A stretch of DNA of 64,000 bases from Leptolyngbyaceae cyanobacterium JSC-12. GTDB lineage: Bacteria > Cyanobacteriota > Cyanobacteriia > Leptolyngbyales > Leptolyngbyaceae. The stretch is taken from positions 9,264 through 73,263 of the forward strand of contig CM001633.1 in the NCBI GenBank assembly GCA_000309945.1. Direction: 5' to 3'. Numbering within the stretch: the stretch's first letter is position 1; each line of letters opens with the position of its first letter. Position numbers and translations under genes: made by a program. Positions 62,956-64,000 of the stretch are shown piece after piece. Below the pieces are notes generated by a model. That model was not told the origin of the DNA. It did not search any database and worked only from the letters and a program-made list of their open reading frames with translations.

Positions 62956-63080
62956 ACTATCGGTTCTGATGGGGAGCAGCCATCAGACGCAAGGGGGAAA
63001 GTGCAGTGTGAATCTGCCGCTGTCCCGCAGCTGTGAAGAGAGGCGCAACTCTCTGAGTCAGAATGCCCGCCGAGTCATAA
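62956..63080 (+). promoter_or_regulatory. cobalamin (B12) riboswitch
   Basis: Conserved blocks of the cobalamin aptamer appear in order: a P3 hairpin (GATGGGGAGCAGCCATC), GGGGGAAAGTGC, GTGTGAATCTGCCGCTGTCC, CGCAGCTGTGAAG, a variable arm, then GAGTCAGAATGCCCGCC. It lies 275 bases before the metE remnant. Bound B12 would switch off downstream expression, the normal control of the B12-independent enzyme. Edges are estimates. Confidence 0.9.
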
Positions 63081-63288
63081 ACCCATTACATAAACATCTG
63101 CGAGGTACGGATGATGCAAACTTTAAGCTTTTGCGATCGGCTATTAGTCGGAATTTTAAGGTTATAGCGTTCTGAGACGACTATTTGAGTTGAACGCGAG
63201 GTTGACATTCAGCGAGGCTACCTGAGTAAAGGTGGCGGCTAGCTGTTCTGGCAGTTAAAGCCAGCACTTTCGCGATGTCTAACCGTAG

Positions 63289-63320
63289 TCTGCCTCCCAA
63301 TCAGGAGACAGCTAGTTTTT
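63289..63320 (+). terminator. candidate riboswitch-controlled terminator
   Basis: CTGCCTCC (63290-63297) pairs with GGAGACAG (63304-63311) with one mismatch, followed by CTAGTTTTTC. A competing pairing, CTAGCTGT (63239-63246) with ACAGCTAG (63308-63315), would disrupt it. Two exclusive folds before a T-run are what an expression platform needs. Confidence 0.45.
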
Positions 63321-63353
63321 CTAGTTATTTACAAATTTTAGGACGCTACAGCT

Positions 63354-63668
63354 ATGGCTCCTCAAACTGCAACGCTGGGGTATCCCCGTATTGGTAAAAA
63401 TCGTGAGGTGAAAAAGGCGTTAGAAACCTTTTGGAGCAGTGAATCTGATGTAGAAACTTTGCTGCAAACGATTCGAGCGGTTGAACTTGCGAAACAGATG
63501 GTGCAACAGCTTAAAACGGGAGTGGCGCATCTACCTAGTGAACAAATCTGGGTGAATCCCGATTGTGGTCTCAAGACACGACGCTGGGAGGAGGTCATTC
63601 CTGCCCTCAAAAACATAGTGGAGGCCGCAGAGATCCTACGGGAGGAAGTAAATGCGTCCCAGACATGA
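63354..63668 (+). pseudogene. metE: metE reduced by an in-frame internal deletion
   Basis: A 104-codon frame that joins both ends of cobalamin-independent methionine synthase. Residues 1 to about 58 are the N-terminus (TLGYPRIGKNREVKKALETF, then W...LLQTIRAVELAKQMVQQL). From SEQIWVNPDCGLKTRRWEEV onward it is the extreme C-terminus, keeping the last zinc-ligand Cys. About 650 of roughly 750 residues are missing, including the folate site and the other zinc ligands, so it cannot be active. The junction is at a Leu-Pro present at both edges, suggesting recombination at short homology. The riboswitch, start and downstream overlap remain intact. Confidence 0.85.
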
Positions 63669-64000
63669 AGTGTGGCAGGGATGCTCTGACGACTGGCAAA
63701 ATTACTTTATCCAGCAGAATCTACTTTTGCTTGGATATACAGCCTGGGATGGTTATCTGCGCCAAGGGCGGGGTGTGCTGATCTGCAAAGTTGCAGATAT
63801 GATTCCTGCATCGATCAATTGGCAAGTTAAGCGAGTTCAGTTTACGCAACGGTTCATCCCACAGGCGCAGATTGGCTCTGATTTAGAGGAATCTGGCCTA
63901 CAACCATCAGCGATCGCCCCTTTGCTCCAAGCTGTTGCCACTTACGATCCTACCCACGAGATCGTCGTCCTGATTCAGGGCAATGGGACGATTGACATCA
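63652..64000 (+). CDS. unknown protein, partial at the window edge
   Basis: The first 116 codons of a gene running off the window: MRPRHEVWQGCSDDWQNYFI, then QQNLLLLGYTAWDGYLRQGR, then GVLICKVADMI. I do not recognise a family. A GGGAGGAAGTAA ribosome site precedes the ATG, which lies 17 bases inside the end of the metE remnant. With no promoter between, it is probably co-transcribed with metE and so under B12 riboswitch control. Confidence 0.65.
   Translation, partial: MRPRHEVWQGCSDDWQNYFIQQNLLLLGYTAWDGYLRQGRGVLICKVADMIPASINWQVKRVQFTQRFIPQAQIGSDLEESGLQPSAIAPLLQAVATYDPTHEIVVLIQGNGTIDI

Follow-up and report, generated by a model that had tools for sequence, protein, structure and literature searches.

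Upstream open reading frames (uORFs) that pass riboswitch control on to a downstream gene are already known, but the origin of such uORFs is not. One of them, uPPE2 of Mycobacterium tuberculosis, stands under a B12 riboswitch, and the overlapping ppe2 was shown experimentally to be translated mainly by termination-reinitiation from it (Kipkorir et al., 2024, PMC11260477). In Anabaena PCC 7120 a cobalamin riboswitch precedes alr4027-btuB2 (PMC10878165). A search of the open-access literature returned the mycobacterial B12-riboswitch uORFs but no account of a metE relic serving as a leader ORF.

The locus analyzed in this work lies in a window of 64,000 nucleotides (G000:C1:9264-73263) from the genome of Leptolyngbyaceae cyanobacterium JSC-12 (G000). 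Cyanobacterial loci of this kind have the same parts as the ppe2 system, i.e., a B12 riboswitch, a short ORF and an overlapping downstream gene (gene X in our case). The differences from it are twofold: the mycobacterial uORF is not described as gene-derived in the sections consulted (PMC11260477), whereas the cyanobacterial one is a decayed metE, arising repeatedly, and the coupling of translation, which is experimental in M. tuberculosis, is something that we infer for the cyanobacterial stumps. Compared with RF00174 control of an intact metE, the aptamer and its position before metE are the same, and relatives retain intact riboswitch-metE-X loci, whereas metE of the window is a non-catalytic stump and the targets left are X and the genes for a methyltransferase, DUF1636 and CobW. 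In sum, a dead first gene under a riboswitch was turned into a short leader ORF repeatedly and by degrees, for which translational coupling is the best explanation.

The metE stump and the loss of MetE

The features of the locus are collected in Table 1.

Table 1. Features of the riboswitch-stump-X locus, in window coordinates.
Feature	Position	Strand	Basis or remark
Cobalamin (B12) riboswitch aptamer RF00174	62944..63088	+	cmscan 54.3 bits, gathering 31.5, model 1-189
Hairpin CATCTGCGAGGTACGGATG, 3' of aptamer	63095..63113	+	near-invariant among relatives (leader alignment)
Anti-start element GGTTATAGCGTTCTGAG, complementary to metE start region	63160..63176	+	complementarity P 0.015 in window
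Translation-start region of stump, TTTAGGACGCTACAGCT-ATG, predicted 3' arm of anti-start stem	63337..63353	+
metE stump (104 codons), putative leader ORF under riboswitch control	63354..63668	+	ORF list, profile matches, codon comparison
MetE N-terminal end, codons 1-46	63354..63491	+	codon comparison with G017 metE
Junction of the 644-codon deletion	63491..63494	+	codon comparison with G017 metE
MetE C-terminal end, 57 codons and stop	63495..63668	+	codon comparison with G017 metE
Shine-Dalgarno-like GGGAGGA of gene X, within the last codons of the stump	63640..63646	+	sequence; same context in most relatives
Gene X, 152 aa, CcmS-like	63652..64000, continuing past window end to G000:C1:73373	+	overlaps stump by 17 nt including stop codon

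In Pfam, the stump matches Meth_synt_1 over profile positions 2-60 and Meth_synt_2 over 272-323, and its similarity to TIGR01371 and PRK05222 (E about 1e-27) is far beyond chance. Both its ends are MetE sequence; unlike MetE, the stump lacks the catalytic middle, covering only positions 1-53 and 702-754 of the 754 in TIGR01371, and it scores far below the family cut-off, over which nothing was found genome-wide. Codon-by-codon alignment with the closest intact metE (748 aa, from the relative G017) revealed codon-level identity to both ends of that gene: the stump follows its N-terminal end to codon 46 and its C-terminal end from codon 48, with the junction at codon 47, where 2-3 nt are common to both sides. 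Relative to this reference, the deletion comprises 1932 bp, i.e., 644 codons, and is in frame. The sequence-only reading had described an in-frame fusion of the MetE ends in 104 codons, which the alignment reproduced; the proposed split into about 58 N-terminal and 46 C-terminal residues at a shared Leu-Pro near 63530 was ruled out, being placed 40 bp too far downstream, as the ends count 46 and 57 codons and the Leu-Pro lies within the C-terminal one. The start codon and the downstream overlap are both kept, as was stated in that reading, with the ATG at 63354 and the start of the next ORF, gene X, at 63652 inside the stump. Among 59 positions invariant in MetE, the stump shows three changes not common to the intact G017 metE, against one for G017 itself; because the stump has barely diverged at these positions, the deletion in G000 does look recent.

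The genome is a single contig of 5.53 Mb (100% complete), in which a MetE search finds only the two pieces of the stump and no second metE anywhere, and which carries a full-length metH (with its Pfam domains) and corrin-ring biosynthesis genes, e.g., CbiC. The absence of another metE from a closed genome, together with the full metH, supports the loss of MetE, as had been proposed earlier. Within the family of this cyanobacterium, a full metE is rare (one of 42 genomes), and relics occur in others; among the stump-bearing genomes that belong to the class-wide set, none carries a full metE at another locus, and metH matches were obtained in all 17 genomes tested, stump-bearing ones included. 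Collapse of a full metE during assembly would produce the same picture, yet it is highly improbable because the genome is closed and stumps recur: the single complete contig holds no other metE fragment, the junction shows no long repeat but just the few common nucleotides, and the same architecture is present in unrelated assemblies.

The RF00174 match exceeds the gathering score across the whole aptamer (model 1-189), in line with the earlier claim that it is intact, and its 54.3 bits are close to the 53.2 bits of the aptamer before the intact metE in G017. Judging by the sequence, cobalamin control of the downstream genes is its predicted role, and the riboswitch now precedes only these genes, the same reading having supposed that it may serve only the next one. 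The hairpin CATCTGCGAGGTACGGATG that follows the aptamer is presumably the P13/L13 kissing-loop hairpin. One further weak RF00174 match in the genome (28.8 bits, below the cut-off; G000:C1:3305300-3305497) lies near metH and corrin biosynthesis genes.

Recurrent stumps in front of gene X

Both X and metE were followed across 390 genomes of the class, with 75 additional loci retrieved and scanned for riboswitches. Upstream of X, 84 of 89 loci have an RF00174 match that reaches or exceeds the gathering score, and at one locus lacking a call (G153) the match was just under the threshold (28.8 bits). The riboswitch stands directly before X, with no leader ORF, in 42 loci, while a full or nearly full metE lies between them in 14; the remainder contain relics or other genes. 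Where metE is replaced by a methyltransferase, CobW or DUF1636, the replacement usually ends with the same 17-nt overlap. In some Nostocales (L239, L216, L218), X is preceded, again with a similar overlap, by a DUF1636 stump of 25 codons or by a 71-codon C-terminal end of CobW, which looks like the same shrinkage in other first genes.

A dead metE before X is usually internally deleted to 16-120 codons running from the metE start codon through the X start, and the overlap with X is mostly the same 17 nt across loci. Besides the 104 codons of G000, the stumps have 106 codons in G153, 93 in G241, 67 in G363, 64 in G027, 53 in G221 and 16 in G301; one of 41 codons is common to G010, G262 and G233, and one of 28 codons to G339 and G354, while three Rhizonema MAGs have 57 (with a TTG start), Kamptonema 120 and N. 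punctiforme NIES-2108 28. Similar two-ended stumps occur in about ten other lineages, and since their junctions and lengths differ, they represent separate deletions. With only the start and the last codons in common, they appear from their sequences to be recurrent leader ORFs, not one conserved protein family. Consequently, the sequence-only description of a fresh record of MetE loss holds as regards recency (three changes against one) and fails as regards a one-off relic; short two-ended MetE-like ORFs do exist in other lineages, differing in junction and length.

A role as a functional small MetE-derived protein could be imagined for the stump from the ORF of G000, which stays open and resembles MetE from end to end. 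Such a function is very doubtful, as the catalytic middle is absent, the stumps elsewhere range from 16 to 120 codons with different junctions, and in the three genomes sharing the 41-codon stump its pN/pS is near-neutral (0.28-1.23 vs 0.15-0.22 for X, from few changes). On these substitution rates, the stump peptide looks unconstrained and seems unimportant, while the frame is kept.

Ordinary decay would make the stump a recent neutral relic, its frame and ends retained by chance, with the riboswitch acting on X via termination or transcript stability, irrespective of the stump. We regard this as a rather unlikely, although not negligible, account. It agrees with the recency of the deletion in G000, with the existence of X loci devoid of any leader ORF, and with two exceptions in which a relic lies beside an intact X, namely a frameshifted metE in G015 and a metE reduced to its C-terminal end in G026b. 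Against it stands the same outcome in about ten other lineages, including old stumps: in G153 the MetE residues are eroded (catalytic motif GANPDCGSKTR), and the frame is still open. One third of deletions would be in frame anyway, and random deletions simulated in intact metE-X loci gave such an ORF 38% of the time, whereas about 10 of the 12-13 independently detected, frame-blind cases have it (P about 0.002-0.006; with a more generous null of 0.45, P 0.008-0.02), the statistics being modest, as the events are few and their independence is assumed. This count covers neither G301, G339/G354 and G059 (the shortest cases, found through ORF search) nor G288, where X is frameshifted. The frame counts support selection for an open frame, though not overwhelmingly.

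Two loci of other form were recorded in addition. In G288 (L175) a 212-codon two-ended metE stump precedes the frameshifted X. In G265 (L121), a further exception to the usual form, the MetE C-terminal end is in frame with X in a 255-aa open frame, a possible MetE-X fusion, and no riboswitch was found there.

Anti-start stem and proposed translational coupling

Between the aptamer and the metE start, the leader holds an element that complements the 17 nt upstream of the start codon, and the centroid fold of the window contains the stem of 63160-63176 with 63337-63353, by which the platform is predicted to be able to mask the start region of the stump. In 8 of the 21 loci compared, this complementarity is stronger than in shuffled leaders (P<=0.015). 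In an alignment of the stem from 14 loci, 86% of cells are paired vs 31-50% with slid partners, some changes being two-sided, and the covariation score is 0.246 vs at most 0.114 for slid partners, although the loci were picked where the element is recognisable, so that paired cells lean towards the stem. The stem is weak or was not found in G241, G301, G354, G049 and G244, and in G017 the riboswitch stem is degraded despite the intact metE. Pairing of the leader with the X start, instead of the metE start, was no better than in shuffled leaders, none of 12 stump loci reaching P<=0.05. A hairpin sequestering the Shine-Dalgarno sequence of X is present in the window fold, but its sequence is absent in relatives such as G241, and the fold is not superior to shuffles (z -0.26); this candidate was rejected as well. 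The predicted anti-start stem suggests that control is exerted on translation at the metE start, which would leave the leader ORF as the path of this control to X.

Control through termination, as the account by ordinary decay would have it, finds a parallel in the Synechococcus PCC 7002 riboswitch, for which a terminator role has been postulated, as cited in PMC10878165. In our case, an intrinsic terminator was rejected, for a scan of the window's leader found no terminator-like site; the search for Rho gave no match over the family cut-off, and transcriptional control of X is therefore less obvious.

We consider it fairly probable that the stump is a translated leader ORF coupling X to the riboswitch by translation: it is a short ORF after a riboswitch and overlaps the start of the next gene (63354-63668 vs 63652). 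The sequence of events would be as follows. MetH made metE dispensable, and one in-frame deletion then presumably removed the catalytic middle. When B12 is scarce, the riboswitch would free the metE start region, and ribosomes would translate the 104-codon stump, terminate 14-17 nt inside X and re-initiate on X, the ribosome-binding site of which lies in the last codons of the stump. When B12 is plentiful, the anti-start stem would block the metE start and no ribosomes would arrive, so that X would be turned down along with the genes that follow it (methyltransferase, DUF1636 and CobW). Selection would then keep the metE start, the open frame and the metE end, not the protein. Translation of the stump, dependence of X on it and this on/off logic are all three what we infer from the arrangement. 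The loci with the riboswitch directly before X mean that a leader ORF is not essential for regulation in general.

In broader terms, we would give an even chance to the statement that in cyanobacterial riboswitch operons a useless first gene is repeatedly whittled by in-frame deletions to a minimal coupling leader ORF. If true, this would be a general route from dead genes to regulatory uORFs. Since present-day cyanobacteria include intact metE, intermediate stumps and stumps of 16-28 codons side by side, the path from an enzyme gene to a leader ORF lends itself to comparison and testing. For annotators it means that short MetE ORFs of this kind are neither to be deleted nor to be completed.

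Gene X and the neighbouring genes

Of the family's 42 genomes, 16 contain gene X. No Pfam family was found for it, and NCBIfam gave a weak match to CcmS (NF049993) in 15 of 31 X members, X reaching 19.2 bits vs the equivalog cut-off of 125 bits. Its AlphaFold model (pLDDT 85.9) retrieved CcmS (PDB 9iur, 8zlh) as the top two Foldseek matches and the sole ones at E<=0.001, the best having E 9e-7 and probability 1.00. X thus resembles CcmS, a beta-carboxysome assembly chaperone, in its predicted fold and weakly in sequence, and differs from it in identity (16-20%), in a TM of about 0.5 and in its setting, which is that of B12-regulated operons without carboxysome context; by the model it is CcmS-like, and a candidate only for CcmS itself. 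X has a strong Shine-Dalgarno sequence of its own, from which its translation might begin independently of the stump. As it lies behind a cobalamin riboswitch with or without metE, X is itself a target, and this constant place suggests a task for X when B12 is short. We thereby recognize a consistent B12-riboswitch target in cyanobacteria that is CcmS-like and has no curated family.

The genes behind X in the window genome, i.e., those for the methyltransferase, DUF1636 and CobW, have the same direction as X. The order in G017 is riboswitch, metE, X, X2, methyltransferase, DUF1636 and CobW, where X2 is a paralogue of X adjoining it; X2 is absent from G000 (L013:1874-2325 vs L083:4565-5032), which by gene content would be a second loss in the same operon. 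Past the window, a second and stronger cobalamin riboswitch (70.4 bits; L013:5857-5999, G000:C1:77356-77498) precedes genes of a TonB receptor, DUF7676, a periplasmic binding protein and a FecCD permease.
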